Origin: Bolinopsis microptera
Lineage: Eukaryota; Ctenophora; Tentaculata; Lobata; Bolinopsidae
NCBI RefSeq assembly: GCF_026151205.1
Contig: NC_087075.1
Span: 16,196,752 to 16,260,751 of the forward strand
Length of the DNA: 64,000 nt
Reading direction: 5' to 3'
Below the pieces are notes generated by a model. That model saw nothing but the letters and a program-made list of their open reading frames with translations. It was not told the origin of the DNA and searched no databases. Position 1 is the first letter of the stretch; every line of letters begins with the position of its first letter. Below are positions 815 to 62,769 of the stretch, piece after piece. The position numbers and the translations under genes were made by a program.

Positions 815-3315
815 CTGCGTTTCGACACCTTTTGCATATCCTCCGGATTTGGGGCCCCGGGGGAGCCCCGGCTCCGCGGGTCCCGGAGGGCCCCGGGCTC
901 CGGGGGTGCTTTCCCCAAAAAGTATTTTCAGGGACCCCAGTACATTTTTGGCGGGCCCGACGGGCTTTAAAGTCCGCCGGCTCCCCACGGCGGCTCGGCG
1001 GAAGGGCCCCGCGGGCAAGCCACTACACCCGGTCCGGGCCCCGGACTCCGGGGAGGCCCCTTTGGGGACTCCGCCGGACCCTTTTGGGGGCCCGACTTAA
1101 TCCGCGGCCCTTGGGGGAGTCCGCCACTCCGGGCTCCGCCGGAGTCCGCCGGCCCAACAAGGCCCACTCTCCGACCTCCTTTTTCCGACCCTCCCGGGTA
1201 AATTTTTCACTGACATACAACATAGCATTTGCAATAATTTTGGTCAGATGAAAAGGTCCTAGTGATAAACCTTTAAACCTTTCCCTCATTTTAAAACCCA
1301 TAATGTATATAACGTTTACCCCAAACCCCCACCAAACCCTCCGCACGAAAAATAACAATGTCATTTAATGGAAAGTGCCCCAAAAAAATTTTTTTTCATA
1401 TTATCTCCTTTGGGGAAGCGTTTTTTGTTTTCCCACAATTTTCATGTGGCGTCCCTTTGGGGGATCCCAGCAAGCAAAAAAAACTTCGACCATCACAGGG
1501 AAAAGACGCCCGCCCCACTCTCACCCTTTGAGCTCCCCATCGTCCCCGTTTACGAAGTAAGGCGAAGCCTGAGGTTTCCCCAGTAACATCGGGCCACCGA
1601 TTAAAAATTTAAAAATTTTTTTTAAATAAAGGTCAAATGTAAAACCCAAAAAATTAGTTATTTATGACGACGCAAATTTTTTAGCCCCAGCGCGAGCGCA
1701 TGCCGGGAAAAGGGCCGCTACTTCAAATTTTGATAAATATTTTTCCCTTGGGGGATTGTTCTCTAACAAAAGACCCTCGCTTTCAGTAGCGCGCGAACCG
1801 CCCAAATGACTTGTGGGAAAAAGAGCGCCCGCACGGCGCGAAAGCTCCTGGTTTCTAAAAAGAACCGATGTCCTTGCATTGTAGGGTAAATCCAAAAAAA
1901 AAATAAACACGCCACTCGCACTGGGGGATGTTCGCGGACCTCGGATTTTTTTAAAACGGGGTTTCACCCCCTTAAATTTGCCCCCGACGCCCAAACCCCT
2001 TTTTTTTGGGCCTCGGGGAAAGCCACCCCTCATTAAATTTTGGGGGAAAATTTGCTCGCCAAAATTTTTTGGGCCAGAAATGTCCTACCTGCACTCATTC
2101 CCGCGCGCAACGAGCTCGTTTTTTCGTCGACTGCGACAGCACAAAAAAAAATTGTGTGGCGCTCGATGGGACATTTTTAAAGGGGGGTACCGTATTAAAT
2201 TTTGATCGCTGAATACAACGAGACAACTGCAAGGGGTCATAGTAGGGTTTCATCCTTCAAGGGCCTCGGTTTTCCTACTAACCAGGGGGGTTTTCCCCTC
2301 CGGCGCGCGCGCTACTCAAACGGAGGGGATATTAAGCAAAACCCTCCCCCACAACCAAATTTTTCAAAATCTTGACACTACCGGGCCCTTTTCTGCAATA
2401 TCCTCGCCTGTGCTCCCAAAAATTTACTCCTCAATTTAACAACATCAAATTTTAGTTTTACATTTTAAATTTTTTCAAAAAACTTTAATTTTTTAAACGG
2501 GCGTTACCCAGGGCCTCACTTCGTCCTTTTCTTCGGCACAGCATCGGGCTCGAAAAAAATTTCGGGGCCCGCTCACCGTCCTCCGCCAAACTTTACTTTA
2601 TTATAGTTTTAAAGAACATAAAACCTGGGGCCCCATAACTCGAAAAACGTAGAGAGCGGCGGGGTCTCCCTTAAGGCGACAAAATTTTTCTTGCAAAAAC
2701 CTTCCCCCAAAAAGAAAATATACAAAAATTTTTTTTGGTCCCCGTGAATTTAAGGAAAAGATTTTTCGCCGGGCTTTGGGGGGTTAGGGGGCAAATTTTA
2801 TACATTTAGGGTCCAAAATTTGGGCCCAGAGTTTTACCTAAGGGGGAATTTTTAGGGAAAAGGTTAAGGTTTATTTTACACGATCTTTTTATCTGACCCA
2901 ATTTGCAAAATGCTATTTTAAATTTACGACAAAATTTAGCCAGGGGGAAGACGGGGTCGAAGTCATGGACCTGTTGGATTTCCCCGGGCCCGCCAACTCC
3001 CCGGGCTCCGCCGGGTTCATTCGGGGGAGAGCCGGCCCATCCGCCCAACACTCCCGGGGCCCCCGTCCCCCGGCGGACCGGAGTCCCTAGTGGGGTTTAG
3101 TCCCCGGGGGACAAATCCCCGACCCCCGGGGCCGCTCGGAGCCGCGGGGGCCTTTTAAAATCCCCTCGGATTTCCCCTCGCTCCGCTCGGGGTCCGCCCA
3201 AAAAGTACTCCCATCCAATGTAAATAAATTTTGGGGGAACACCCCCCGGGGTCCCACGGGTCCGCCCGGGGTCCGGGGGCTCCACCGCGACTGGGCTCCC
3301 ACGGGGAAAATGGGC
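815..3315. mobile_element. short, internally deleted relative of the large 8-bp-TSD transposon
   Basis: About 815-1700 matches, through heavy noise, the left inverted repeat of the large element (compare 21,860-22,740), including the GC-rich CGGACTCC-type repeats and the segment with CATACAACATAGCA. About 2430-3315 matches the same repeat inverted. The GC-rich ends point outward, as in the full element. Between them, 2090-2220 matches the reverse complement of about 30,950-31,065 of the large element. It therefore looks like a non-autonomous copy of about 2.5 kb lacking the long gene. Exact ends and target duplication cannot be read because of the noise. Confidence 0.6.
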
Positions 3316-21745: not shown

Positions 21746-21759
21746 TAACCACATTTTGT

Positions 21760-22676
21760 GGCACTATCCGTCGCGGAGTAGAGTCCGCGGCGGAGCCGCC
21801 GGACTCCGAGCGGACTCCGAGCGGACTCCGAGCGGACTCCGAGCGGACTCCGGCGGTGCTCCGCCAAAATGTATTTACACTGGACTCGAGTACATTTTGG
21901 CGGACTCCGAGCGGAGCCGAGCGGACTTTAAAGTCCGCCGCGGACTCCGAGCGGCTCCGCGGCGGCTCGGCGGAGTGTCCGCCGCGGACTAAGCCACTAG
22001 GCGGACTCCGGTCCGCCGCGGACTCCGGCGGAGTGCTTGGCGGACTCCGCCGGACCTCTCCGCCAGACTTGAATCCGGCGGAGTCCGGCGGAGCTTGGAC
22101 TCCGCTCGGAGTCCGCCGGACTCCAACAGAGTCCACTGACTTCCGACCTCCGACTTCCGACCCTCGGCTAAATTTGTCACGTGACATACAACATAGCCAA
22201 TAGCATTTTGCGATATTGTGGTCAGATGAAAAGGTCGCTAGTGATAAACCTTAACCATTACCCTCACAATGTCAATAGTGTACAACTCTAGTCCTAACTT
22301 TGACCCTATAATGTATAAACGTTGACCCTAACCCTCCACCAAACCGCCAGCAGCGAAATATCAATGTCATTGACTGGTCACGTGACCAAAACAATTTTTG
22401 TCATATTATCTCATATAGGGAAGCGTTTTTAGTTTTACACTACACGTTGCATGTGGCGTCATTCGGCCGGATCCCAGCAAGCAAAAATACGTCGACCATC
22501 ACAGGACGACGCCAGCACTCTCTACGCTCGTCGAGCTCCGATCGTCCTGTGACGAAGTAAGGACGAAGCGAAGCCTGAGGTCCTCAGGTAACATCGACCA
22601 CCGATTGAAAATTCAGAGATTTTTTGACATAAAGGTCAAATGTAAAACTAAAATCTTGATGTTAATTGATTGACGA
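21760..22676 (+). repeat. left terminal inverted repeat of the large transposon
   Basis: About 917 bp, matching 31,493-33,023 in reverse. The outer part has four or more tandem 11-bp GGACTCCGAGC units (about 21,800-21,850) and many inverted CGGACT/AGTCCG pairs, then CCAAAATGTATTTACACTGG. The inner part is ordinary sequence and ends near TTGATTGACGACG. The clustered short repeats are what subterminal transposase-binding sites look like in other families; that role is inferred. Confidence 0.9.
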
Positions 22677-23166
22677 CGTTGGACGTGACGTCAATTTTTG
22701 AGCACAGCGCGAGCGCATGCGGAAAAGGACCGCGTAGCTAGTCAAGATCCCAGGAAAAGTTACCGGCCAGCGGGCGCGCCACCAATATGATAGTTTCGAT
22801 ACAGCTGAAGACACCGCGCGTGTCTGTCAAGTAATTAGCCATTACAATTCATGTTTAGATTGCGCGCGCATAGGAATTCTGTCAAGAATAGTTAAATTTG
22901 ACCACAAAATGCCATAAATATATTCACAATGATTGGATAATGATGGTAAAAATTTAATCTTTAAAAGAATTTTTGAATTTTTAGTTTTCGTTCAACAAAA
23001 CCGATTTTACAGTTCAAAAGCAGAATTTTCAACTTTTTAATAACAATCCCTTCACGCCGCGCCGATATGTGTTTCTGTACTAATTTGCGCTCTTATTTCG
23101 CGTTGGATACTTTTACCTATAGATATGTCATTCTATAATTAGGATTGTTTCTGGGGCTCGCTTGCA

Positions 23167-23176
23167 ATATATATAT
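23167..23176 (+). promoter_or_regulatory. TATA-like box upstream of the transposon gene
   Basis: ATATATATAT about 73 bp before the start codon. The following pyrimidine-rich stretch would fit a transcription start. Prediction only. Confidence 0.45.
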
Positions 23177-23248
23177 TCAACATTTTCTTTCCTATTTCCG
23201 TACATTTTGTATTTTCCTCGTTCGTGGTAATTAGTTTTTATTAGCACA

Positions 23249-26200
23249 ATGAGCAAACGATCACGTACCGAAATAGAAGTTCAATTTCTTAGCGACTGTG
23301 TATACTCTGCGTTAGTCAAATCTGGATACTCAAAGCTTCCTTTCTGTAAGTACATTTTGGCACATTTTGTATTGTCAGAATTTGACGGACGCGTAGAAGA
23401 CCATGTGAATCAATTTCCCCATTATTTTGGTTACGTTCGTAATTACTTGGATTCGCGAAATTTTCGTCGAATTATTGGTCAAGCCAAGTGTATCGCCGAT
23501 AATAAAGAGGTTTTAGATTCTCTTAAGCAGACTTATAGGAGTGATCAAATTCGCATTTCACATGAAAACAGTAGGCCACAAGTAGAAGGCGTCCCTTGTA
23601 GTGTTTGTTTTAATTTGTCAAACAATGACGGAGGTGATAATTTGAAAAGTAGATGCAACAAAATTTTATCCGGATTTGCTAATAACGAGTTAGGTCGTGG
23701 AAAGAGTTTTAAGGAAATCCATGAATGCATTTGCAGGACTTCCTACGAAATTCTTTCTAGCTACGATAAAAGTGTCGAAAATTTCGAAATATCTTTGAGC
23801 GAATTAAAAGTGGAATTTGAGCGGTACAAATCGGAACTAACCATCAATGTTGCAAAATTCAATGATCATTTAACCGAGGCTAGTGCGCTTATCCACTATG
23901 GCAGTGGTCTTTCAGGAAGTCAGGTCGAGAATTTAGACCGTACTATATTTTGCACTGAATTTTCTAAAACAGACATCGAGCAACATCTGTCTAATCTACC
24001 AGATTATCGCCACATTAAGTCATCCGATCCAAATATTGAGCTTGGGGACCTGTTTAATGAATACTGTTCGCACGTCCTTACGTACCATTTCGAACCAAGT
24101 TTCTTTAAACTGGGTACAAAATATAGTTTAACTGGCCCTAAAGGAGGGAAAAGATTGTCCGATTATGCACAATCTGTCTGCTTAAATTACCTTTTACTTC
24201 CGAGAAATCATGGTATTTACAGTGAGTTAAGACCCATACTTGCTGTCCACAGTAATGCTCGGACACGCTACAAGCCCCACCCTCTAGTTGACGATCTTTA
24301 TATCCCAAGAATTCCTCCAGCTAGTGTCGCTGATGAAAAAGTTGAAATACTAAGAGAACTCCAATCAATTTTGCTGGGGACTCCCCAGATACCACTTTTG
24401 TATGAAGGTTGGGATTTGGTTAAATCATGTCCTAAACAGGTAGCAGCTAACTCACGATTAGTTGACCTTATGTCAATTAGAGAACATTCCCTAAGTTTCC
24501 AGTCTGGTAATAATTTCTTGAAGGCCAAACCAAAAGAGCATTACCAAAATTTGTCGATTGACGAGGTGAAATGCACCTTAAAGAGTTATAGTTTGATTTG
24601 TGAGAGCGACTTCCAAAAATACGACGAAAGTTTTCTTAGAAAAAAACTTGAAGAAGCTGAGTCTACAAGGAGCTTTGCAATGTGGTATGATCACGCCGTT
24701 ATTTTAAACAGAAGTTACATCCTTTTTGTCGTTTGGCCTTTATACAGCAAGTCCCTTTACCAATCAAATGATCTATGTGAAGGGGATTTACAAAAAGCTG
24801 TCGAGCAAATTTACATCCATTACATAGCTATGTCTCCTTCGACAACCAAAAGCGAAGAGGCATTACAAGAATTTAGAACTAACCAGTTAGCTGCCTTTAA
24901 AGTTACAATTAAAACAAACTGCGGAATCGAATTCACGGACAGATTAAAATTTGTGAATGGCGATGCGCCTGTAAGGAGTGTTGAGAATGGTTCAAACAAG
25001 AGTGGACCGTATCGTAATCCTACCTTATTAGAATGCTTCCCTATAGATCATTATGAATATTACGAAATTGTAAAATTTGAACACATGACATTCGACAAAA
25101 CTACAAAACATGCTAATAAAGGTGGGTTCTTCGAAAATCCTGAAAATCGCGGAAAATCGCTACAAGATTTAAAAGATAAACCCGCCTCAGCATTAGAACT
25201 AATGAAAATAAGATGGCCACATAAGCGTCTTGATAATATGAATAGCGAACAGATAAAAGAGTTTTTGAAAAATGACTTAGGGGGTATAAGGCGACCCCCT
25301 ATTCTATTCATGGCTACTCCTGATAAATCACCTGAAGAAATTGGTCTTGAAGGGGCTGAACTTTTGGGAAATGAATGTCTTCATGGTCTCAGAGGCGAAA
25401 CCCTCAAATCATTCAAACACATTCCAGGACCTCAAGGTGACGGACCATTAAAATTAGTACATGAGATTATATCCAATTGTTGTAATTTTGATTACGGATC
25501 AAAACACGAAAAATCTGGCGAGTCAGTTTTTAAGAATTTAATTGAAATTGTCCAGAAACTAGAAATGAAATTATTTCCAGACGGGTTGTCCTGTAATATT
25601 TGCGGGGATATTTTTACTTTGTCAATTGTGACCAAATGTCCTAAATGCCTTTATTATACTTACTTCAGAGCACTTCTAGAAATTCATATATTTGGATACA
25701 AAGATGAGTCTAAACGGTCAGGTGCCTCCACATTGCTGCTTCATAATATAATTTTTGTATGGTTTAAAACTTTGAAAGAAATACAGATTACGATACCTAC
25801 TGCTCTTAAAGTTATTAATTCTATTTACTTCCTCGGCATAGTTTACTACATGGGTCCAACATTCGAACTTACTAACTTTTTGTCAGTGCATGCCGGACGC
25901 ATGGAAGATATTTTTCGGCAACTGAAGGTCTCTGCTCACAGTTTTACCAATCGAAAACACTTTCAAGAGAGTTTCCTGCTTAATGTCCTAAAACGTCAAG
26001 AAATCTCCAGATACTTTAAAACTGCAAACAATTTCAAAACTTATCGTAGCACAGTTTCTTCTGCCATCACTGCATTTCATCAAAGAAGTCCTATTCCTGA
26101 CATTGTTTTTACCAAAGAATTTATAACGTCCAACATCCAAGACTTTGCAGGACACGTTTATCGCATTTCAAATTTTGTCGTTTCCAATACTAATGAACGA

Positions 26201-27034
26201 TATATGAGTTTGTCCTCGGAAAACGACCTTAAATTCTTTTCCTCTAGAGAATGTCGCTCAGAAAACTGTCTGTCATCATGCCCACCATGTTTATCAAAGT
26301 TATTTCCTGATTTCCCAATCCACAATATATTGACATCAACGATTGAGATAATTCTAAATACCAAAGCTGCTATCTATCAGAAATTTGCTTGCAACATTTT
26401 TGTCAATGGTGGGGTAGATTTCTCCAATTTGCGTAAACTATTAGGTCAGGGCCCACTATTAACACCTGATATCATAACGTCAAGCGAAATAATAGAAAAT
26501 ATTAACATTGATAGGGAAAATCCTAGCAGACAAAAGCTGCCAGCAAACTTTTCGTCAATGTTGAAATTATTGATTGAAATGTTTCCCTCTGATCCTGAAA
26601 AATACGATAAGCTTAAACACAGCAACATGGCTAAATGTATTTCCAAAATTCTTAACGCAGTCCCAGATGAAATTATTCACTTAGACAGTAGTAGTCGCAG
26701 ATTAGCCTTGGCATCATCTAGTTGTATTAAGGATCCAAAAGACAGTAATAATAATAGACAGCATAATGAATTAGCATACTATACAAGTAGGATTACGGAC
26801 TCAATTGAACTCATAAGCACCAAATTGTTATCTTACCAAAAAGACATCGACAAACTATCAGGTGCCGTAGATAAATTAATTACTAATAGGCAATCAACCG
26901 ATTCCATTGAGGACAATCAGTTTGTCAAGAAACTTAGAGAAAAACAAAAATTAAAGCTCATAGCTCTCGAAGTCTTGAACAAGCTCACCTATGAAATTAA
27001 TACTCACAATTATTTTATGTACAGATCACTATAA
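23249..27034 (+). CDS. 1261-residue transposon protein, putative transposase
   Basis: A single uninterrupted frame of 1261 codons, the only large one in the element, starting at ACAATGAGC. What can be seen in order: a basic start (KRSRTE); a CxxC pair at residues 117/120; a charged helical stretch around 165-215; FAMWYDHAVIL with W479-Y480-D481-H482; NGDAPVR at 570-576; NECLHGLRGE with H712; a CxxC-x11-CxxC zinc site at 782/785 and 797/800; a cysteine cluster at 1002, 1007, 1011 and 1014; and a likely coiled coil at about 1170-1240. In some DDE transposases a D-x-P-x-R motif surrounds the first catalytic aspartate, so D572 is a candidate; this is a weak analogy. WxDH plus LHxxxG resembles large uncharacterised proteins I recall from marine invertebrates. 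Its position inside long inverted repeats makes transposase the best guess, presumably nuclear. The frame is intact, so it may still work. Confidence 0.9.
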   Translation: MSKRSRTEIEVQFLSDCVYSALVKSGYSKLPFCKYILAHFVLSEFDGRVEDHVNQFPHYFGYVRNYLDSRNFRRIIGQAKCIADNKEVLDSLKQTYRSDQIRISHENSRPQVEGVPCSVCFNLSNNDGGDNLKSRCNKILSGFANNELGRGKSFKEIHECICRTSYEILSSYDKSVENFEISLSELKVEFERYKSELTINVAKFNDHLTEASALIHYGSGLSGSQVENLDRTIFCTEFSKTDIEQHLSNLPDYRHIKSSDPNIELGDLFNEYCSHVLTYHFEPSFFKLGTKYSLTGPKGGKRLSDYAQSVCLNYLLLPRNHGIYSELRPILAVHSNARTRYKPHPLVDDLYIPRIPPASVADEKVEILRELQSILLGTPQIPLLYEGWDLVKSCPKQVAANSRLVDLMSIREHSLSFQSGNNFLKAKPKEHYQNLSIDEVKCTLKSYSLICESDFQKYDESFLRKKLEEAESTRSFAMWYDHAVILNRSYILFVVWPLYSKSLYQSNDLCEGDLQKAVEQIYIHYIAMSPSTTKSEEALQEFRTNQLAAFKVTIKTNCGIEFTDRLKFVNGDAPVRSVENGSNKSGPYRNPTLLECFPIDHYEYYEIVKFEHMTFDKTTKHANKGGFFENPENRGKSLQDLKDKPASALELMKIRWPHKRLDNMNSEQIKEFLKNDLGGIRRPPILFMATPDKSPEEIGLEGAELLGNECLHGLRGETLKSFKHIPGPQGDGPLKLVHEIISNCCNFDYGSKHEKSGESVFKNLIEIVQKLEMKLFPDGLSCNICGDIFTLSIVTKCPKCLYYTYFRALLEIHIFGYKDESKRSGASTLLLHNIIFVWFKTLKEIQITIPTALKVINSIYFLGIVYYMGPTFELTNFLSVHAGRMEDIFRQLKVSAHSFTNRKHFQESFLLNVLKRQEISRYFKTANNFKTYRSTVSSAITAFHQRSPIPDIVFTKEFITSNIQDFAGHVYRISNFVVSNTNERYMSLSSENDLKFFSSRECRSENCLSSCPPCLSKLFPDFPIHNILTSTIEIILNTKAAIYQKFACNIFVNGGVDFSNLRKLLGQGPLLTPDIITSSEIIENINIDRENPSRQKLPANFSSMLKLLIEMFPSDPEKYDKLKHSNMAKCISKILNAVPDEIIHLDSSSRRLALASSSCIKDPKDSNNNRQHNELAYYTSRITDSIELISTKLLSYQKDIDKLSGAVDKLITNRQSTDSIEDNQFVKKLREKQKLKLIALEVLNKLTYEINTHNYFMYRSL

Positions 27035-28020
27035 ATATTAGAGCAAGCAAGTCCTTGTAACCTATTTTGTATCATTCAGTATGATTTATTTTGTGTCGAT
27101 TTCAAGTATTATTTATTTTGTGTCAATTGTTCGGTGTAAGTATTAAATAAGTCAGATTGATTCTATTGCAGTTATTTTATGTATCGTGACAAATTTATTT
27201 TATGATTGATTTATTCCAAGTTAAGTCATTGCATTTATATTATTTTTATTACATATTTTTATCTTGACTAAATTCAACAAAATTCAACGAAAATTTGTCG
27301 AGCAAAACATGTTTACATGTTTTTGAATCCAAAAAGAGTAGTTGCGAAAATTATTTGTTTATTATATACATTTTTAACATTATTTTTGAGAGAAAGATTG
27401 AGAAATTGACTGTTGTGTGAGGAGCCATGAAGTACTCATTGAGTTAAGATCCCCTATTCGATCCTGCTAGTTGTGTGGTTGAAAAACACTGCATTAGGCT
27501 AGATTGTGGATCATAGTGTTGAGCTGGCTCAATGACTGCCTTGGAATTCACACCAGGAAGGAAATGAGCTACCAAATTTAGTTATGAAAGATAGGGAAGG
27601 GATTTGATGTAGTAACTTACATTTTTACAAAGTAGTTGGGAAGTAGTTGCTAAATAAATGCAGGGTAAAGTTTAGTTGGTGTAGTAAAAGTATCATGTTA
27701 AGCTTGTTTTCTTCTGGAAAAGGTCAGTGTCTCGTTTTATTATTATTTTATCGTCTGTTATTGTAATTATAAGAATCATAATTTTGTAACGTTTTAAATC
27801 ATTTGTAAAAACATAACAAATATCTGATGCTGCTTTAATAGGTAAGACCTCCTCGTTGGTAAGCAGTGGGTGATGCAGATTTTGTTGGCTATGATTAACC
27901 GTTTGTGGGATAATGGCAGGGAGTTTATCCTTATTTTCACGTTTCACAGTAATCGAATTAACATTTTGCTCTTAGAACATTCGCTCGAGAAATATATTCC
28001 CTGCCATTGCTCATTTAATG

Positions 28021-28056
28021 CTGTAAAACATCATCTACAAGCTTGATGTTTTACAG
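28021..28056. repeat. 13-bp perfect hairpin
   Basis: CTGTAAAACATCA and its exact reverse complement, with a 10-base loop, about 1 kb after the transposon gene. Confidence 0.85.
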
Positions 28057-28487
28057 TATGTTATTTTTCCAGCTACAATTTTTGTATTAGCAGACTATAC
28101 CTTATTTTATTTTAAAATATTTTAACTGTATTTTAAGTGTGAGTGCAGAATTGAACTGTGTTGATATGTTCCTACAAGATTACAACTGGTTGTACTGTAA
28201 GTCTTCTGAGTACCAGCTCAGTACCCCTCACCTTCCTGGTTATATCGTAGAGAAAATCTGACTTTGCCACAACTACGTTCATATTTTGTACAATACAAGG
28301 TGATTTTCATTCAGTTTTAAGTCTGTTTAGTAACATTTTAACGTGAATATGACATCACCTGACTATCAGCTCTGTTCTATGCTCATTGAGAACGTTCAAA
28401 TCAAATTACAACAAAATTGTCATTTTTTCCGATTCTTGGAATATAGTTTAATATTTCATATCCCTTTTTGAATGGTGATTATGTTAT

Positions 28488-28862
28488 TTAAAATAATCTT
28501 ATCTTAACTTCAGACAGTGTTTCGGAGGGTGACAGTTCCTTCGCTTAAGTACACCAAGACTTCTTTTGAGATGAGGATAAGAATTAGGACCGGTGTCCAG
28601 CTTTCCCTGTACGAAAGGTAAGTTATGTCTATCTCTGAGAGCACGTTTCCTTGATGTGTGTAGTGGATTTTTGTTCCGGGGTAGGTGAGACATGTTTTGG
28701 TGGTTTAATAGTTAGCACCTGTCCCAAATGGTGATTATGTTATTTATAATAATGTTATCTTAACTTCAGACAGAAATTCGAAGGGTGACAGTTCCATCTC
28801 TTAAATACACCAAAACTTCATTTGAGATGAGGATAAGAATTTCATTTTGGACCGGTGTCCGA
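28488..28862 (+). repeat. direct repeat of about 125 bp, two copies
   Basis: About 28,475-28,598 and 28,730-28,860 share GTGATTATGTTATTTA, CTTAACTTCAGACAG, GGGTGACAGTTCC, TTTGAGATGAGGATAAGAAT and GACCGGTGTCC in the same order, with about 10-15% difference by eye. Confidence 0.8.
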
Positions 28863-29399
28863 TGGAAGGGAAGTTATGTTTCTCTGTCAGCTTGCCAAAT
28901 GTTTTCTATCCTTCACTGCAATCGTCAAAAACACGTAAGTATTAATATGATCTTAAATTAAGAATTCTATAACAGACGCGCGCGGCCCTGAATCTTACAG
29001 TGCCTCTATGTCAAGGTGACACCCTTTTCCAGCCATTCCATATAAAAAGAGATAGCTTAATTCACATTCTTCTACTGTTCTAGCAAGTTTTTGACTACTT
29101 ATGATGTATAAAGCAAATAGTGTCAGTTAAGTAAAACAGAAAGCGCGCGCACATACGCGCATATTTTCTTTTTGATTGTATTGTCGATATTATGTATTAT
29201 TTATGTCTACCCAAATTTTTTCAGGGAGTCTACTTAAAGATCATGAACATTTTCAACATTCGTCTGAAGGAACTGTAGCGTAAATATATCTGCAAAGACA
29301 GAACATTCTAACTTACTCACCGGATTGGATCGAGCTGTTTTGAAATGTGAAACAAATGAGTAACCTATAAATATTTGTTTTATTAGAATTGGTTTAACC

Positions 29400-29678
29400 C
29401 CCCAGTTCCATGGCCAGATATTATGCCAAATTATTAGACGGAGGTCCATTTCCCGTAGATCATCTCCGGAGATGATTCTCCGGCTCCGTCAACTGTATTA
29501 GACGGAGATTAAGCTCTGAGCTCTCCGGGAATTTCTCGGAGATTAATTCATACATAATCATACAGAATCAACAAAATTACCGTAGATGGTCTCCGGTCAT
29601 GGAACTGCAAACCGGAGAAATATCAGTAGACGATCTCCGTCTAATAATTTGGCATAATATCCGGCCGTGGAACTGGGG
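29400..29678. mobile_element. 280-bp MITE with 44-bp inverted ends
   Basis: CCCCAGTTCCATGGCCAGAT continues through ATTATGCCAAATTATTAGACGGAG, and the inverse is at 29,635-29,678 with three mismatches. The middle is rich in CTCCGG/CCGGAG palindromes. No clear target duplication; the ends may extend a few bases. It lies inside the large transposon. Confidence 0.7.
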
Positions 29679-29697
29679 TGTAAGGAATTGCTTTCTT

Positions 29698-30085
29698 ATG
29701 ATTTAAATTATTTATAGCGTTGTAGGGCCCTGAAAGTAGATGTTTGGGGCCGTTCACATTACGTAATCGGAGCCCACTCGGAGAGAGAGGCGGTGTTTAT
29801 ATGATAACGTTTGTGTAATTTTAACACAATAACTAACTTGTAACTGTAAAACTGGTTATATAGGGAGTAAGGGAGCTAAAATAGGCTGAAAAGTGATGTC
29901 TTAACATATGATCGGAACGACTCTCAGCTGTTTTATTGTAATTGGTGCATCTTGCTCTTATTATTTAAATTTTAGCGTTGTCATGTAGGCCCTGAAAGCA
30001 GATGTTTGGGGCCTCGGGCCATTTACATTACGTAATCATTGCGAAGAGAGAGGCGGTCTTCATATGATGTTTGTTTGTGTAATTT
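29698..30085 (+). repeat. diverged direct repeat of about 125 bp, two copies
   Basis: About 29,698-29,824 and 29,958-30,085 share TAGGCCCTGAAAG or TAGGGCCCTGAAAG, AGATGTTTGGGGCC, CACATTACGTAATC or TACATTACGTAATC, GAGAGAGGCGGT and TTTGTGTAATTTTA. The CACATTACGTAATC part resembles the ends of the MITE at 20,142. Confidence 0.7.
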
Positions 30086-30757
30086 TACGAGCCAGATGTT
30101 TTGTGTTTGAGTCAAAAGTTCTAAATATTCTGTTACTGCAGTGCACAGCAAGTTCATCGAGTGTAGTATGAACTTTCAGCACATAAGATAAGAACTACTG
30201 AGCAGCTGGATAGTTACTCATTCAGATGTGAAATCATTGTACATTTGTTTAATCGAAAGACGCTTTCAATTTTGTTCAAAACAGTGTTCACTTCAATTAA
30301 AATTAATGGGATCCACTTGATTATCCCAAAGCAACAAAATGGACAGAAAAGACTATAACAGTTTTGGAAACTACTTCGTAATAAGTGCTGCAGGCGATCG
30401 GCAAAATACGTACTCTTATCACTTATCTTCACGCGCATTTCCAAATATGGTCATGCATGATGACGTCACACGCATAACAACGGGTTTATTTTGCAAAGTT
30501 ATTTTTCTAGCTTGTTGCGCGCAGCATCAAAAACAGTTTTTCTGTAATAACTTTTTAAAATGAGAAGCCCCAATTTTCCTCCTGGGGAGGTAACGTTATT
30601 TTTACAAGACGAACATTTTGCAAAAAACCGGAAGTCTCTATCTTTTTTACTTCCGAAGTTAGGCCCCTAACGGTTAGGTTTCCTGGGATGTTGATAAATA
30701 TTCGGCTTGTGGCGCGATGTGTTGCTCTAAGTCTAACTATAGCCCTCTCGCTTGCAG

Positions 30758-30831
30758 TTACTGGGCCGCGCTCAGCCTGTCATTCTGCCTAATCTCTATT
30801 AACAACATTAAAGCCTGGGGTCCTCAGGTAA
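30758..30831 (+). repeat. recurrent GGCGGCGCTCAG motif, copy inside the large transposon
   Basis: ACTGGGCCGCGCTCAGCCTG, TCATTCTGCC, AATCTCTATT, then AGCCTGGGGTCCTCAGGTAA. Confidence 0.75.
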
Positions 30832-31492
30832 GCTTGCAGTAGCGCGCGACCGCCGGAGGCGGAAATGACCTGGTTAGCTAGGTAAACGCGATGTGCCTTG
30901 TAGGATGAAATCCTACTAGCTGACGCCACTCACAGCTGTGCTGCTCGCTGTACGTCAGCGATCGAAATTTATACGCGTATCCCCCGTTAAGATGTGCCAC
31001 CCGACGTGCCACACAATTTTTCTCGTTGCTCGTCGCACGTCGACGAACAACGAAGCTCGTTGCGACGCGCAATGAGCTGCCAGGCTAGGACATCGTCCTG
31101 GTCCAACAAATTTTGGCGAGCGATTTTCTCCAAAAATTTAATGAGGGCGCCGACTTCCACTCTGGCTAGGTTTCTTTTTACCCAGCGCGCGTTCCTTAAT
31201 GGGATGAGGTAAAATTAGGTAAAAAGAATCCACTGACTTGGCCAGAGTGCTTTCATAAAACTCTATTACTAGCTTGGCGTTGTAGGATTATATACTTTAA
31301 TTTCGGATCGAGTGAAGCGAGTGATACACATTACTTTGATTAAACTCATGCTGATCACAATACAGTACAGGGAAATGGGTAACACGGCTTGCAGTCGCAG
31401 CTGCGGCTCCTCGCTGGCGGTAATATTTCAATGAACAAGAATTAAGAAAGAGAGAATTTAAGAAAAAGAGAATTTTATTTGCCAAAGAAATT

Positions 31493-33023
31493 GACGCCGT
31501 CAATCAATCAACATCAAGATTTTAGTTTTACATTTGACCTTTATGTCAAAAAATCTTTGAATTTTCAATCGGTGGTCGATGTTACCTGAGGACCTCAGGC
31601 TTCGTCCTTACTTCGTCACAGGACGATCGGAGCTCGAAGAGCGTAGAGAGTGCTGGCTGGCGTCGTCCTGTGATGGTCGACGTATTTTTGCTTGCTGGGA
31701 TCCGGCCGAATGACGCCACATGCAACGTGTAGGGTAAAACTAAAAACGCTTCCCTATATGAGATAATATGACAAAAATTGTTTTGGTCACGTGACCAGTC
31801 AATGACATTGATATTTCGCTGCGGACGGTTTGGTGGAGGGTTAGGGTCAACGTTTATACATTATAGGGTCAAAGTTAGGACTAGAGTTGTACACTATTGA
31901 CATTGTGAGGGTAATGGTTAAGTAGGTAGTGCGCCATCGACAGTGAGCCGCGCGTGCCGACTGTAGGATGGTTTTTTAGCGCTAATTTCGGCCAGCACAA
32001 TTTTCTTCAAACAAATAAATATTGAGTATCCTTCCCGACCTCCAATTGCAACAAAAATTGGTAAGCTTACTCATAGACTTACAAGGAAAGTGTCCGAAAA
32101 ATTTAAAGCATATCCAATTAACAGACATTATGCTAAAAGCAGCGTATTTTGCCCCATTTTGATCACTATATCAACTGCGATATCCACCAAATTTTTCGGA
32201 CAGTTGTAAAAGCCCTATTGGAAGGTCGTCGCCAATTTTCAGAATGATCTCATTTAAGGAACTGAAGATAAATCCGAATAATACGACAAAAATGGTCAAA
32301 TTTGGACGAATTTGGTCAAATTACGCGACTTTTACAGCTACTTTTGCTCCAAAAGCCGCGCACCATCAAATATGGCACTTAGGCGAAATTCACTGATCTT
32401 TCCAAAAAGGTATGACAAATTTGGTATTGTGAAAATTCTCACAGTCTCTAGAAAACACTGGTACAAAATTTTTTAAAATCCGAGCAAGTTTATTTTTATC
32501 GTGCACCTCCTAGGTTAAGGTTTATCACTAGCGACCTTTTCATCTGACCACAATATTGCAAAATGCTATGTTGTATGTCACGTGACAAATTTAGCCGAGG
32601 GTTGGAAGTCGGATTTCGGAAGTCAGTGGACTCTGTTGGAGTCCGGCGGACTCCGAGCGGAGTCCGCCGAGCTGGCGGAGTCCGCCAAGCTCCGCCGGAC
32701 TCCGCCGGATTCAAGTCTGGCGGAGAGGTCCGGCGGAGTCCGCCAAGCACTCCGCCGGAGTCCGCGGCGGACCGGAGTCCGCCTAGTGGCTTAGTCCGCG
32801 GCGGACACTCCGCCGAGCCGCCGCGGAGCCGCTCGGAGTCCGCGGCGGACTTTAAAGTCCGCTCGGAGTCCGCTCGGCTCCGCTCGGAGTCCGCCAAAAT
32901 GTACTCGAGTCCAGTGTAAATACATTTTGGCGGAGCACCGCCGGAGTCCGCTCGGAGTCCGCTCGGAGTCCGCTCGGAGTCCGGCGGCTCCGCCGCGGAC
33001 TCTACTCCGCGACGGATAGTGCC
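31493..33023 (-). repeat. right terminal inverted repeat, interrupted by a MITE
   Basis: Reverse complement of the left repeat. Removing the 590-bp insertion and one 7-bp target copy leaves about 934 bp. Differences from the left copy are few: single bases and small indels in the GC-rich part, including a 12-bp unit around GAGCTGGCGGAG that the left copy lacks. The high similarity argues for a fairly young insertion. Confidence 0.9.
31923..32512. mobile_element. 590-bp MITE nested in the right inverted repeat
   Basis: The uninterrupted sequence is visible in the left repeat (reverse complement of 22,241-22,263), so the insertion is exact: GGTTAAG occurs once there and twice here (31,916-31,922 and 32,513-32,519). 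The element starts TAGGTAGTGCGCCAT and ends with the inverse of TAGGAGGTGCACGAT, an imperfect inverted terminus (11 of 17). It has no coding frame. The duplication is 7 bp; because TTAA lies within it, a TTAA-targeting element with matching flanks cannot be fully excluded. Confidence 0.85.
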
Positions 33024-33031
33024 CATTTTGT

Positions 33032-51882: not shown

Positions 51883-52618
51883 CTCCCTCTTCCCTCTTCC
51901 CTCTTCCCTCTTCCCTCTTCCCTCTTCCCTCTTCCCTCTTCCCTCTTCCCTCTTCCCTCTTCCCTCTTCCCTCTTCCCTCTTCCCTCTTCCCTCTTCCCT
52001 CTTCCCTCTTCCCTCTTCCCTCTTCCCTCTTCCCTCTTCCCTCTTCCCTCTTCCCTCTTCCCTCTTCCCTCTTCCCTCTTCCCTCTTCCCTCTTCCCTCT
52101 TCCCTCTTCCCTCTTCCCTCTTCCCTCTTCCCTCTTCCCTCTTCCCTCTTCCCTCTTCCCTCTTCCCTCTTCCCTCTTCCCTCTTCCCTCTTCCCTCTTC
52201 CCTCTTCCCTCTTCCCTCTTCCCTCTTCCCTCTTCCCTCTTCCCTCTTCCCTCTTCCCTCTTCCCTCTTCCCTCTTCCCTCTTCCCTCTTCCCTCTTCCC
52301 TCTTCCCTCTTCCCTCTTCCCTCTTCCCTCTTCCCTCTTCCCTCTTCCCTCTTCCCTCTTCCCTCTTCCCTCTTCCCTCTTCCCTCTTCCCTCTTCCCTC
52401 TTCCCTCTTCCCTCTTCCCTCTTCCCTCTTCCCTCTTCCCTCTTCCCTCTTCCCTCTTCCCTCTTCCCTCTTCCCTCTTCCCTCTTCCCTCTCCCATCTT
52501 CCATCTCCATCTCCCTCTCTCCCTCTTCCCTCTTCCCTCTTCCCTCTCCCATCTTCCATCTCCATCTCCCTCTCTCCCTCCCCCTCTCTCTCTCTCTCCC
52601 TCTCTCCCTCTCTCCCTT
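51883..52618. repeat. (CCCTCTT)n heptamer array
   Basis: Eighty or more almost perfect 7-bp units to 52,493, then a degenerate tail of CCATCTCC and CTCTCC forms. The pyrimidine strand is the plus strand; the purine strand is (AAGAGGG)n. Long minus-strand frames across it are a product of the period and are not genes. Confidence 0.97.
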
Positions 52619-53242: not shown

Positions 53243-55137
53243 ATTACACACCCTCCTAGCTTCCCCTTAGATGTGACAATAAGTTACCCGGCACACCCTC
53301 CTAGCCTCCCCCTAGATGTGACAATAAGTTGCCCGGAACACCCCCCTAGCCTCCCCCTAGATGTGACAATAAGTTACCCGGCACACCCTCCTAGCCTCCC
53401 CCTAGATGTGACAATAAGTTGCCCGGAACACCCTCCTAGCCTCCCCTAGATGTGACAATAAGTTGCCCGGTACACCCCCCCTAGCCTCCCCCTAGATGTG
53501 ACAATAAGTTGCCCGGCACACCCCTCTAGCCTCCCCCTAGATGTGACAATAAGTTACCCGGCACACCCTCCTAGCCTCCCCTAGATGTGACAATAAGTTA
53601 CCCGGTACACCCTCCTAGCCTCCCCCTAGATGTGACAATAAGTTACCCGGCACACCCTCCTAGCCTCCCCCTAGATGTGACAATAATTTACCCGGCACAC
53701 CCTCCTAGCCTCCCCCTAGATGTGACAATAAGTTACCCGGCACACCCTCCCAGCCTCCCCCTAGATGTGACAATAAGTTACCTAGCACACCCTCCTAGCC
53801 TCCCCCTAGATGTGACAATAAGTTACCCGGCACACCCTCCTAGCCTCCCCCTAGATGTGACAATAAGTTACCCGGAACACCCTCCTAGCCTCCCCCTAGA
53901 TGTGACAATAAGTTACCCAGCACACCCTCCTAGCCTCCCCTAGATGTGACAATAAGTTACCCGGTACACCCTCCTAGCCTCCCCCTAGATGTGACAATAA
54001 GTTACCCGGCACACCCTCCTAGCCTCCCCCTAGATGTGACAATAAGTTACCCAGCACACCCTCCTAGCCTCCCCCTAGATGTGACAATAAGTTACCCGGC
54101 ACACCCTCCTAGCCTCCCCCTAGATGTGACAATAAGTTACCCGGCACACCCTCCTAGCCTCCCCCTAGATGTGACAATAAGTTGCCCGGAACACCCCCCT
54201 AGCCTCCCCCTAGATGTGACAATAAGTTACCCGGCACACCCTCCTAGCCTCCCCCTAGATGTGACAATAAGTTGCCCGGAACACCCTCCTAGCCTCCCCC
54301 TAGATGTGACAATAAGTTGCCCGGTACACCCCCCCTAGCCTCCCCCTAGATGTGACAATAAGTTGCCCGGCACACCCCTCTAGCCTCCCCCTAGATGTGA
54401 CAATAAGTTACCCGGCACACCCTCCTAGCCTCCCCTAGATGTGACAATAAGTTACCCGGTACACCCTCCTAGCCTCCCCCTAGATGTGACAATAAGTTAC
54501 CCGGCACACCCTCCTAGCCTCCCCCTAGATGTGACAATAATTTACCCGGCACACCCTCCTAGCCTCCCCCTAGATGTGACAATAAGTTACCCGGCACACC
54601 CTCCCAGCCTCCCCCTAGATGTGACAATAAGTTACCTAGCACACCCTCCTAGCCTCCCCCTAGATGTGACAATAAGTTACCCGGCACACCCTCCTAGCCT
54701 CCCCCTAGATGTGACAATAAGTTACCGGAACACCCTCCTAGCCTCCCCCTAGATGTGACAATAAGTTACCCAGCACACCCTCCTAGCCTCCCCTAGATGT
54801 GACAATAAGTTACCCGGTACACCCTCCTAGCCTCCCCCTAGATGTGACAATAAGTTACCCGGCACACCCTCCTAGCCTCCCCCTAGATGTGACAATAAGT
54901 TACCCAGCACACCCTCCTAGCCTCCCCCTAGATGTGACAATAAGTTACCCGGCACACCCTCCTAGCCTCCCCCTAGATGTGACAATAAGTTACCCGGCAC
55001 ACACTCCTAGCCTCCCCCTAGATGTGACAATAAGTTAACAGGCACACCCTCCTAGCCTCCCCCTAGATGTGACAATAAGTTACCCGGTACACCCTCCTAG
55101 CCTCCCCCTAGATGTGACAATAAGTTGCCCGCCCCAC
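53243..55137 (+). repeat. 45-bp minisatellite with higher-order structure
   Basis: About 42 clean units containing ACACCCTCCTAGCCTCCCCC, TAGATGTGACAATAAG and TTACCCGG. Variants (TTGCCCGGAACA, AATTTACCC, ACCTAGCAC, a missing C in CTCCCCTAG) recur in the same order 854 bp apart (53,587 and 54,441 begin matching blocks), showing a higher-order unit of about 19 monomers. The period is a multiple of three, so repetitive frames stay open. Not a coding gene. Confidence 0.95.
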
Positions 55138-57900
55138 CCCCTACCCCCCCCTAAGTGACAATAAGTTCCCGCCCCCCCCCCTACCCCCCCCCCCTAAGTG
55201 CCCAAAATTTCCCCCGGGGAAAAACCCCTCCAAAAACCCCCCCCCCCCCAAGTAAACAATAAGTTAAAAACACCCCCCCTCTAAACCCCCCCCCAAATTT
55301 AACCTTTAAATTTTACCCCCACCTCCCCCCCCCCTTTTTTCCCCCTAGATGGCCCAAATTTACCCCCCCCCCCCCCTTTTAACCCCCCCCCAATTGAAAA
55401 TTTAAATTCCCCTTCCCCCCCCCCAAAAAGGCCCCCCCCAAGATGGGGAACAATAAGTTTCCCCCGACACCCCTTCCCTACCTCCCCCCTAAAATTCCCC
55501 CCCAATAAATTCCGGGGCCACACTGCCCAAAGCCCCCCAATTTTAAAAAATTTTTTCCCCCATTAAAAACCTCCCCCTAATTAAACAAAAGTTTCCCCCC
55601 CCTCCTAAAGCCTCCCCCCCCCCAAATTTGAAATTTTAAGTTCCCCCTCTTCTCCCTCCTAGCCTCCCCCTTTTAGGGGCCCAAAAAATTTAAACCCCCC
55701 CAAACCCCCCCCCTCCCAAACCCTCCCCCTAAATGGAAAAATAATTAAACCGGCCCCCCCCTCCTAGCCCCCCCCCCAAGATGTGACAATAATTTCCCCC
55801 CGACAAAACACCCCCCCCTTCCCTCCCCCTTAATGTGAAAATAAGTTCCCGGGAACCCCCCCCTAGCCCTCCCCCTAAAAAATTGTGAAAAAAAAAAGTT
55901 ACCCGAAACACCCTCCACCCTTTCCCCTAGATTGCAAAAATTTTCCCGGTACACCCCTCCTACCTTTCCCCCCCCCCTTTCCCATTAAGTTTTCCCAGCC
56001 CACCCCCTAGCCCCCCCCCTTTTTTTCCCCCCCAAAAATTTCCCAAAAAGGGCCCCCTTCCACCTCCCCCTAATTGAAAATAATTTCCCCAACAAAAACC
56101 CCACCACCCCCCCAATAGCCTTTTCCCACAAACCCCCCCCTTAGCCTCCCCCTAATTGTGCCCTATTTTTTAAACCCGCCCAACCCTCCCTGCCCCCCCC
56201 CCCCCTAATTGACAATAATTAAAACCCGGGCCACCCCCTCCTAGCCCCCCCCCAAATTTGGACAAAAAATTAACCCCGGGAACCCCCCCCTAGGTCCCCC
56301 CAAAGTGCCCCAATTTTAAGTTTCCCTTTTTTTCTCCCCCCTTTTAGCCCCCCCCCCAAAATGTGACAATAAGTTCCCCCGGCAACACCCTTCCTTTAAA
56401 AGCCTCCCCCCTTTCCTTTTTTTCCCCCCCCCCCTTTTTCCTCCCCCAGATGTGACAATAATTCCCGGGCACCCCCCTACCCTCCCCCAATTTTTGTTAA
56501 ACAATAAGTTACCCCACACCCTCCTAGTTTCCCCTTCTTTAGTTAAACCCCACCCCCCCCTACCCTTTCCCCCTAGAGGTGACAATAATTCCCCCACACC
56601 CCCCCCCTCCTGGGCCCCCCCCTAGTTTGGGGACAAAAATTTTCCCGGAAAAACCACCCTCCTACCCCCCCTCCCCCCTAAATGTGACAATAATTCCCCG
56701 GCCAAAAACCCCCCTAGCCCCCCTAATGTTAAAACAATAATTACCCGGCAAAACCCCCCTTCCCAAACCTTTCCCCCAAAGGGGGAAACAATAATTTATT
56801 CCAACACCTTTCCTCCCCCCCTAGTTTAAGACAATAATTTTCCCCGGCACACCCCCCTGGGGCCCCCCTTTGCCCAAAAAGGGTTTCCCAGAATCCTTTC
56901 CCTTTCCCCCTAGATTGACAATAATTTTGGCCCCCTCACCCCCTCCTTTTAAAGCCCCCCCCCCTAGATTTGACAAAAAGTTCCCCGGGCAAAACCCCCC
57001 CTTTAAACCCCTCCCCCTAGATGGGGCCCAATAATTTTCCCCCGGCCACCCCCCCTCCCCCCTCCCCCCTAGTTTAAACAATAATTCCCCGGCAAAACCC
57101 CCAGCCCCCCCCTTATGGACAATAATTTAAACCCCCCCCCCCCTACCCCCCCCCCCTTTTAGCCTCCCCCCCTAGATGGAAAATAAGTTCCCCGGGCACA
57201 AACCCTCCACCTCCCCCTAGAGTGACAAAAATTTACCCCCCAAAAACACCCCCCTACCCCCCCCCCCCTGGATGTGACAATAATTCCCCCGGCAAAAACC
57301 CCCCTAGCCCCCCCTAAAAGGCCTTTTTTTCCCCCCCCCCCCTTTTGCCCCCCCAAGCCCCTTTTTCCCAAAGTACCCCCTTCCCCCACCCCCTTTTGCC
57401 CTCCCCCCCTAATGTGACAAAAAGGGTTACCCACAAAAACCCTCCAACCCTCCCCCCCAGGGATGTACAAAAATTTTTACCCGGCACCCCCTCCTAAGCC
57501 CCCCCCCTAAAATTTTTGAAAAATATTCCAACCCCCCCCACCCCTTTTTCCCCGGGCCTTTTCCCCCAGATGTGACAATAAGTTCCCCCCGGCCCCCCCC
57601 CCTTTCCCCCTCCCCCTAGAATAAATTCCCCAAAATAAGTTTCCCGGCCCCCAACCCCAAAAACCCCTCCCCCTAGATTGCAATAACCCCCGGGCCCACA
57701 CCCCCCCCTACCCTTCCCCCTTTCCTAAGTTTCCCCGCCCCCCCCCCCCCCCCCCCTAGATTTTGCCAATAAGTTCCCGGCAAAAACCCTCCAACCTTTT
57801 CCCCTAGTTTTCCAAAAAGTTCCCCTTTCCCCCCCCCTAGCCCCCCCCCTAGATTGACAAAATTTTACCCGGCACACCCTCCAAACCCCAACCCCCTTAT
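55138..57900 (+). repeat. continuation of the 45-bp array, low-accuracy consensus
   Basis: The same landmarks (CTCCCCCTAG, ATGTGACAATAA, CACACCCTCC) recur throughout but with swollen C and A runs and lost bases. This is the previous array in unpolished form. Frames predicted on the minus strand here are artefacts. Confidence 0.85.
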
Positions 57901-58582: not shown

Positions 58583-61500
58583 CCTAGCTTACGGGGGTTC
58601 CCCTACCCTTTCGGGTTTACCTAGTTTACGGGTTACCTAGCTTACGGGTTCCCTATTTCCCCCTGGTTACCTACCCTTTACGGGTTACCTACTTACGGGT
58701 TTTCCCTTTAGTTTACATTACCTATTTACATTTGGTTACCGGGGCTTACTGGTTACCCTTAGCTTACAGTTAAAAACTTACGGGGTTACCCCAAAAAGCT
58801 TAAAACGGGGTTACCCCTAGCTTACGGTTTACCTACTTACAAATTTTACCTTAGGCTTCCCCTGGGTTATTGGGGCTTACTATTTTCCCTTTTTAACTTA
58901 CTGGTTTTACCTGGGGGCTTCTGGTTAACCTATTTAAATGGTTACCTGTTACGGGTTAACCTACTTACGGTTACCTAGTTTAAACGGGTTTCCCAAAGTT
59001 TTAAGGGTTTTACCTACTTACTGGTTACCTACTTACTCTTTTACCTAGTTTACGGGGTTACCTAGCTTACTGTTACCTAGCTTACTGTTACCTAGCTTAC
59101 TGTTACCTAGCTTACTGGTAACCTAGCTTACTGGTAACCTAACGTACTAGGTTACTAGCTTTACTGGTTACCTAGCTTACGGTTAGCTAGCTTACTGGTT
59201 ACCTAGCTTACTGTTACCTAGCTTACTGGTTATCTAGCTTACTGGTAACCTAGGCTTACTGTTACCTAGCTTACTGGGTACCTAGCTTACTGGTTACCTA
59301 GCTTACTGGTTACCAAACTTCCCGGGTTTTACCTAGCTTATTTGGTTACCTACTTCCCTGTTCCCCTAGTTTAACGGGTTTACCAAAGCTTACTATTAAA
59401 ACCTACTTATTTTTTACCAAGTTTACTGGTTACCTAGCAAAAAGGGTTTACCTAGTTTTCCTGGTTACCTATTTAAACCGGGTTAACCTAACAAACTGGT
59501 TACCAACCCTTACGGGGTTTTACCTACCTTACGGGTTTTACCTAGCTTACGGGTTACCAAATTTACGGGTTACCAAAAGGCTTATTTGGTTACCTAGTTT
59601 TAACTGGTTACCTACTTACGGGTTCCCCTAGCCCCCCGGTTCCTACCCTTACGGGTTTTAACTAGCTTACTGGTTACCCTATTTACGGGTTACCTAGCTC
59701 CCGGGTTACCTAGTTAAACGGGTTTTTACCTACTTACTGGTTACCTACTTACTTTTTTCCCTTTAGCTTACGGGAAACCAAGCTTCCCGGTTTAAACCTA
59801 GCTTAGGGTATACCTAGCTTACGGGTTTAAACCTACTTACGGGTTCCCTTTAGCTTACGGGTTTACCTAATTACTATTTACCTAGCTTCCCCGGGGTTAC
59901 CTAGCTTACGGGGTTAGCTACCCTTACGGGTTACCTACTTACGGTTACCTAGCTTCCCGGTTCCCTAGCTTACTGGTTACCCAGCTTACGGTTACAGCTT
60001 ACGGGGTTACCTAGCTTACGGGGTTAAACCTAGCTTACGGGTTTTCCCAATATTACTGGGTTATTTTATTTTTAAAAGGGTTTACCTAGCTTACGGGTTA
60101 CCTAGCTTATTTTTTTTACCCTACTTACTTTTTTACCTACTTACTTTTTAAACCTAACTTACGGGGTTTACCTTTCTTACTGGTTTTACCCATTATTTGT
60201 TCCCCTAGCTTCGGGTTTTACCTAGCTTACTGGTTCCCTATTTACGGGTTTACCTACTTACGGGTTACCTAACTTACTGGAAAACCTACTTACGGGTTTT
60301 AACCTAGCTTACGGGTTCCCTATTTCCCGGGTTACCTATTTTACTTTTTTTTAACCCCCTTTAGCTACTGGTTACCAAATTACTGGTTACTTAGCTTAAA
60401 GGGGTTACCTAGTTTACGGGTTTCCCAATGTTTACGGGTTTTACCTAGCTTAATGGTTACCTATTTTACGGGTTTACCTACAAACGGGGTAACCAAACTT
60501 ACGGTTTTAACCCCTTACGGGTTTACTTAGCTTACTGGTTACCAAGCTTACTATTTACCTGGGTACGGTTACTTAGCTTACGGGTTACCTCCTTCCCTGG
60601 TTCCCAGCTTCCCTGGTTACCTACTTCCCGGGTTTTACCCTACTTACGGGTTTTACCGGGTTTACGGTTACCACTTCCCTGGTTACCTTTTTTTACTGGT
60701 TACCTAGTTTTAGGGGGTTTTCCCTAGTTTTACGGGTTTACCTACTTACTGTTATTTAAAGCAAAAAGGGTTTCCCCCTAGCTTACGGGTTTTACATAGT
60801 TTACGGGTTACCTACTTAATGGTTTACCTAGTTTACTGGTTACCTATTTTCCTGGTAACCTAGCTTACGGGGTTAAAAAAAAAAAAACCTAGCAAAAGGG
60901 TTACCTAGCTTACTGTTACCTAGCTTACTGGTAACCTAGCTTTACTGGTAACCTGCTTACTGTTACTTAGCTTTACTGTTAGCCTACTTACTAGTTACCT
61001 AGCTTACTGGTTACTTAGCTTACTGGTTACCTAGCTTACTAGTTACCTAGCGTACTGGTTACTTAGCTTACTGGTTACCTAGCTACTGGTTACCCTAGCT
61101 TACTGGTTACCTAGCTTATGGTTACCTAGCTTACTGGTTACCTAGCTTACTGGTTACATAGCTTACTGGTTACTTAGCTTACTGGTTACCTAGCTTACTG
61201 GTTACCTAGCTTAAATGGTTACCTAGCTTACTGGTTACCTAGCTTACTGGTTACCTAGCTTACTGGTTACCTAGCTTACTGGTTACCTAGCTTACTGGTT
61301 ACCTAGCTTACTGGTTACCTTGCTTACTGTTACCTAGCTTACTGGTTACCTAGCTTACTGGTTACCTAGCTTACTGGTTACCTAACTTACTGGTTACCTA
61401 GCTTACTGGTTACCTAGCTTACTGGTTACCTAGCTTACTGGTTACCTAGCTTACTGGTTACCTAACTTACTGGTTACCTAGCTTACTGGTTACCTAGCTT

Positions 61501-62606
61501 ACTGGTTAGCTAGCTTACTGGTTACCTAGCTTACTGGTTACCTAGCTTACTGGTTACATAGCTTACTGGTTACTTAGCTTACTGGTTACCTAGCTTACTG
61601 GTTACCTAGCTTACTGGTTACCTAGCTTACCTGGTTACCTAGCTTACTGGTTACTTGCTTACTGTTACCTAACTTCTGTTGTTACCTATCTTTACTGGTT
61701 ACCTATCTTACTGTTACCTAGCTTACTGGTTACCTAGCTTACTGGTTACCTAGCTTACTGGTTACCTAGCTTACTGGTTACCTAGCTTACTGGTAACCTA
61801 GCTTACTGGTTACCTAGCTTACTGGTTACCTAGCTTATTGGTTACCTAGCTTACTGGTTACCTAGCTTACTGGTTACCTAGCTTACTGGTTACCTAGCTT
61901 ACTGGTTACCTAGCTTACTGGTTTACCTAGCTTACTGGTTACCTAGCTTACTGGTTACCTAGCTTACTGGGTACCTAGCTTACTGGTTACCTAGCTTACT
62001 GGTTACCTAACTGTACCTGTTACCTCGCTTACTGGTTACCTAGCTTTACTGGTTACCTAGTTTACTGGTTACCTAGCTTACTGTTACCTAGCTTACTGTT
62101 ACCTAGCTTACTGGTTACTTAGCTTACTGGTTACCTAGCTTAAGGGTTACCTAGCTTACTGGTTACCTAGCTTAATGGTTACCTAGCTTACTGGTTACCT
62201 AGCTTACTGGTAACCTAGCTTACTGGTTACCCTAGCTTACTGGTTACCTAGCTACTGGTTACCTAGCTTACTGGTTACCTAGCTTACTGGTAACCTAGCT
62301 TACTGGTTACCTAGCTTACTGGTTACCTAGCTTACTGGTAACCTAGCTTACTGGTTACCTAGCTTACTGGTTACCTAGCTTACTGGTTACCTAGCTTACT
62401 GGTAACCTAGCTTACTGGTTACCTAGCTTACTGGTTACCTAGCTTACTGGTTACCTAGCTTACTGGTAACCTAGCTTACTGGTTACCTAGCTTACTGGTT
62501 ACCTAGCTTACTAGTTACCTAGCTTACTGGTTACTTAGCTTATTGGTGACCTAGCTTACTGGTGACCTAGCTTACTGGTTACCTAGCTTACTGGTTACCT
62601 AGCTTA
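58583..62606 (+). repeat. 16-bp satellite (TTACCTAGCTTACTGG)
   Basis: About 4 kb of 16-bp units. Roughly 58,583-60,890 is mostly low-accuracy consensus with cleaner islands, for example 59,050-59,310. From 60,900 the array is clean. Near 62,190-62,500 the variant GGTAACC returns every 64 bp, a four-unit higher-order period. No gene. Confidence 0.95.
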
Positions 62607-62769
62607 CTCTGACTCTTGCTCAGTGTTCCGTCAGAGAGATACGTCCATAGTTTACCGGGACGTTTCTGGAATCGGTGGTTAGTTGCCTCAAGGTTTCCCT
62701 CCAACAAAAGTATCCCTGAGAAGCGATCCGTTTCTGTTGGATACTCGATGCCAGTACCAACCTGACGCG
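62607..62769. other. short unique spacer
   Basis: Unique-looking sequence between the 16-bp satellite and the second copy of the segmental duplication. Nothing recognised. Confidence 0.6.

Follow-up and report, generated by a model that had tools for sequence, protein, structure and literature searches.

The 64,000-nucleotide stretch of Bolinopsis microptera DNA analysed here (hereafter the window; NC_087075.1 positions 16,196,752 to 16,260,751, assembly GCF_026151205.1) probably contains two nested transposons, an outer one devoid of genes and an inner one carrying the gene for a 1261-residue protein, plus a 590-bp miniature element in the outer right inverted repeat. The nesting can be read directly, with both sets of ends and their duplications in place. 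It would have been built in steps: a non-autonomous outer element, with GGCACTATCC ends, an 8-bp duplication and inverted repeats of about 0.9 kb, would have landed at CATTTTGT, and a 7.9-kb cut-and-paste element with CCCAGGAAA ends and a 2-bp duplication would then have landed inside it. A further insertion would have brought the 590-bp miniature element into the right inverted repeat of the outer element. Copies of both families were sought in the 264.65-Mb genome (232 contigs, of which C1 to C13 appear chromosome-sized).

The outer element and its copies

An exact 8-bp target duplication, CATTTTGT, is found at 21752-21759 and 33024-33031, as the first-pass annotation had reported. Between these sites lie the left part (21760-22748, forward strand) and the right part (30688-33023, forward strand) of the outer element, whose 20-bp ends, GGCACTATCC, are identical at 21760 and 33023. 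The near-identical 0.9-kb inverted repeats described earlier hold up with some amendment. They measure about 0.92 kb (21760-22680 versus 31494-33023) and are 96% identical at positions 491-920 and 90% identical at positions 1-497, the latter value reflecting chiefly gaps, at 50 positions against 4 mismatches, and the right repeat is split by the 590-bp miniature element at 31923-32512, which is flanked by 7-bp GGTTAAG repeats. Over 132 bp the right end of this miniature element has 95% identity with part of locus L028, the end of another nested element, which itself lies within a 25.3-kb outer-element copy. Leaving out the inner element, the outer copy in the window is 3325 bp long, with the 590-bp insertion and the second AT counted in.

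The 30-bp outer terminus occurs 231 times in the genome (116 + 115, with at most 3 mismatches), against 0 + 0 for the reversed control, so that the other copies which a transposon reading called for do exist. Twelve pairs of neighbouring opposite ends, paired by us and including that of the window, were examined, and an exact 8-bp duplication was present in 10 of them. The two remaining pairs (L048/L049 and L055/L056) have no 8-bp duplication, and in each of them one flank repeats the other in inverted orientation, exactly over 20 nt in one case and approximately in the other. At positions 978-3275 of the window the outer element has an older relative, with piecewise identity of 73-81%. Separately, repeat units of 7, 45 and 16 bp make up long tandem arrays at 51884-52617, 53247-55192 and 59010-62608, respectively.

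In its 8-bp duplications (10 of 12 pairs) and its inverted repeats the outer element resembles hAT, P and Zisupton/KDZ elements; the duplications are given as 8 bp for Zisupton and usually 8 bp for hAT in PMC12730594. However, it is gene-less and no partner transposase was found in six partly read copies, and it is therefore not assignable to any of these groups. In the partial reads of these six larger outer copies no gene was shown to be the outer family's own: the copy on C1 at 12.87 Mb has no open reading frame (ORF) of at least 110 residues, that on C12 at 12.49 Mb has two of 138 residues, and by eye the 221-residue ORF on C7 at 5.43 Mb is gag-like, while those of 386 residues on C8 at 17.48 Mb and 879 residues on C1 at 6.96 Mb are reverse-transcriptase-like. 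One candidate for the outer transposase, the 1341-codon ORF P0006 in the 25.3-kb GGCACTATCC copy on C1 (L065:415-4437, C1:8335652-8339674), was rejected. In the C12 and C13 copies of this ORF the shared DNA begins only at locus positions 2837 and 2832, well inside the outer element and near TAGGGGGTGCAC, so that P0006 belongs to another nested element. The C13 copy is intact and 99% identical, and the C12 copy has one stop. P0006 contains DGAS, TDLGG, CNAH and CEH motifs, hAT-like by eye, and gave no Pfam match above the cut-off.

Boundaries and relatives of the inner element

The inner element, an autonomous-looking transposon of 7939 bp on the forward strand, extends from 22749 to 30687 and has ends CCCAGGAAA..TTTCCTGGG (at greater length, CCCAGGAAAAGTTACCGG and CCCAGGAAACCTAACCGT); these boundaries are common to other gene-bearing loci. 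It lies between GTCAAGAT on the left and ATGTTG on the right, and the dinucleotide AT is read directly on both sides, at 22747-22748 and 30688-30689. Among the 28 other outer-end loci fetched, 18, coming from 11 elements, carry the unbroken sequence GTCAAGATGTTGATAA, which sets the inner duplication at 2 bp, AT. The empty sites to be looked for thus exist, as paralogous uninterrupted sites.

When gene-bearing loci were compared with the window element by BLAST (pieces longer than 150 bp counted), the left limit of similarity fell at most 4 bp from 22749 at five other loci (C11, C7, C9 at 8.86 Mb, C9 at 14.9 Mb and C12 at 5.49 Mb), and none of them had a match of such length to 21760-22748; this comparison leaves out the rearranged C9 locus at 8.63 Mb and older fragments on C5. 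An intact CCCAGGAAAAGTTACC start is present at four of the five. The C7 copy has a damaged left end, lacking the first few bases, and its duplication is unreadable. On C11, C7 and C9 (14.9 Mb), where the right end was read, the similarity ends at 30687 in each case. Each of the three gene-family copies with both ends intact is flanked by a 2-bp duplication: AT in the window, GA on C11 and TT on C9 at 14.9 Mb.

The first-pass annotation had taken the GGCACTATCC ends, the 8-bp duplication and the gene together for a single complete element, and in the window the gene is indeed located between two such ends. We consider this reading to have almost no chance of being right, since the other five gene loci begin at or next to CCCAGG, the outer copies run uninterrupted across the inner insertion site, and short members of the inner family produce 2-bp duplications; an element carrying its own gene between GGCACTATCC ends is ruled out by the shared inner boundaries and the uninterrupted outer sites. 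The suggestion that the gene itself is of hAT, P or Zisupton/KDZ type falls as well, because its own element makes duplications of 2 bp and not of 7-8 bp. As the 8-bp duplication belongs to the gene-less outer element, what remains for the gene is the CACTA-like lead.

Relatives of the inner element are numerous. The pattern CCCAGGAAAMSTWAMCG, with at most 1 mismatch, occurs 673 times in the genome (362 + 311), against 1 + 2 for the reversed control. Eighteen short-element regions were fetched, and a readable end pair was found in 16. A 2-bp duplication is seen in 10 of these 16, none of the 10 showing a 3-bp one; L073, L079 and L088 offered more than one pair, and there the pair with a duplication was counted, which favours the 2-bp reading. 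L074 and L085 share flanks and probably go back to a single insertion within duplicated DNA, which brings the number with a duplication to 9. Five of the six without duplication adjoin array spacer, and the remaining one, L090, has a right end unlike that of the family. Across gene copies and short elements the duplicated dinucleotides are AT, GA, TT, AC, CA, TA and TC. The 1261-residue protein would presumably mobilise the short CCCAGG elements as well as its own.

Some of the short elements form arrays, observed at L063, L091-L099 and places in the genome pattern listing. Taking 100 listed places out of the 673 termini, and step cut-offs of 640-760 bp, 42 belong to 15 arrays whose members share a strand and follow one another in steps of 677-737 bp. 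The arrays are head-to-tail with units of about 700 bp, and in the C2 array a unit comprises a short element and a 338-bp spacer. The array copy examined shares with the 7.9-kb element its first 19 bp and last 116 bp (84%). Both outer ends could be read in four of the five arrays tried, the right end of the fifth not being reached. The whole array is flanked by a 2-bp duplication in three of these four, a 2-mer (AA), a 3-mer (AT) and a 4-mer (AG) whose right end, read by eye, is mutated to TCTGGG; the 10-mer has no flanking duplication (AA/AT). The composites L077 and L079 (749 and 804 bp) are also flanked by a 2-bp duplication. The simplest account would be that composites move as units and that unequal exchange alters the number of units.

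The 1261-residue protein and its possible affinities

The intact gene noted at first pass is an uninterrupted ORF of 1261 codons at 23249-27034 on the forward strand, and its product is probably the transposase of the inner element. This protein has 26 matches in the genome, and three (window, C11 and C7) are full-length and uninterrupted. The ORF on C11 differs from that of the window by 2 nucleotides and no amino acid, and the ORF on C7 by 5 nucleotides and 3 amino acids. The element had been thought possibly still active; the near-identical copies are signs of recent activity. Two divergent lineages, 28-36% identical to the window protein, are also present: that of C12 has a 1365-residue open frame and a broken copy on C10 (pieces 93-99% identical), and that of C5 has two overlapping frames. 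For the elements of these divergent lineages, the L010 lineage included, the ends were sought and not found.

The view that the protein has no clear place in a named superfamily was borne out: neither it nor its relatives matched Pfam above a curated cut-off (best E-value 0.0012, to an unrelated family). The window protein found nothing convincing in NCBIfam, PHROGs or PDB, nor did the core profile in PDB, and no match in these libraries supports a transposase fold. A search for relatives in viral contigs, phages and prokaryote genome contigs found none. The CACTA profile PF02992 had no match in the genome, which is uninformative because 14 control genomes gave none either.

The three lineages were aligned with a separate block for each C5 frame, and 80 of the 379 ungapped columns in one block and 143 of the 590 in the other are invariant. 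The putative catalytic set is D481-D572-E886: D481 (WYDHA; codon 24689-24691), D572 (GDAPVR; 24962-24964) and E886 (GRMED; 25904-25906), all on the forward strand, are invariant in the three lineages, where the latter two motifs take the forms GDxPVR and GRxED (E886/D887). This choice is not unique, because invariance extends to numerous further acidic residues, such as E471, E519, E536, D564, E579, D731, E811, E873 and D887. D572 had been proposed to lie in the first strand of an RNase H fold; its conservation is confirmed, and to judge from the alignment the first catalytic residue is more likely D481, which would make D572 the second. The basis for placing it second is the D-x-P motif of CACTA transposases. 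Also invariant are E709 and H712 (ExLH) and a CxxC..CxxC module, C782-C785-C797-C800 (25592-25648, forward strand). The only invariant histidines between D572 and E886 are H612, H712 and H832, no two of them 3-4 residues apart.

With these features the protein fits best a DDE transposase resembling the CACTA/EnSpm (CMC) group, and the inner element may work in a CMC-type manner, a CACTA/EnSpm-like mechanism being the one we infer. The CMCT clade, as characterised in PMC12730594, has target duplications of 2-5 bp, C(2)C and H(3-4)H between the second D and the last E, and in most cases 5'-CA..TG-3' ends. The 2-bp duplication of the inner element falls within this range, the protein is large with a plausible D-D-E set and a long stretch from second D to E, and, given the proposed catalytic residues, C(2)C pairs lie in that stretch. 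However, H(3-4)H is not conserved, CxxC..CxxC being found there instead, the ends are CCCAGG..CCTGGG (CCC..GGG) and not the usual CA..TG, and no transposase profile of the group appears among the Pfam matches. Membership is not claimed because H(3-4)H and CA..TG ends are lacking.

Even if the nesting is right, the protein could be a DDE transposase of another group, such as PIF/Harbinger-ISL2EU-Spy (PHIS), whose relatives make duplications of 0, 2 or 3 bp according to PMC12730594. The 2-bp duplication of the inner element matches some members of that group too, and no profile links the protein to CMC; we nevertheless regard this as rather unlikely, for the duplications of the inner family are not restricted to one dinucleotide and the Pfam scans list no PHIS profile for the protein. 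The D-x-P-x-R and ExLH motifs, which we take to be CACTA-like, also speak against PHIS. That the protein is an accessory or passenger of the CCCAGG element, with the transposase encoded elsewhere, would agree with the absence of a Pfam-recognised transposase domain, but it seems very improbable given that this is the sole ORF of at least 100 residues in the inner element, that it is intact in three copies, and that D, D and E are invariant among lineages about 30% identical.

Returning to a CACTA/EnSpm-like transposase, we put forward, as a tentative idea more doubtful than the nesting, that the protein and its two divergent relatives form a superfamily not yet described, or else branch off deeply next to CMC/Transib. 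It would be marked by CCCAGG ends, 2-bp sequence-unspecific duplications, CxxC..CxxC in place of the C2/H2 zinc site of CMC, and miniature members spreading as tandem arrays bounded by a single end pair. Such ends are not described in the portions covered by a general, untargeted survey of the transposon literature, including PMC12730594 and PMC11075540. Similar motifs are widespread in uncharacterised proteins of animals and of Rhizophagus, which would lower the novelty.

Separating the two elements prevents the wrong ends and the wrong duplication length from being assigned to the 1261-residue protein. The outcome is an apparently complete young transposon whose ends and 2-bp duplication are defined and whose gene is intact. 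The protein belongs to a family unrecognised by the profile libraries searched, and the place of this family among DDE transposases is testable with a mini-element.
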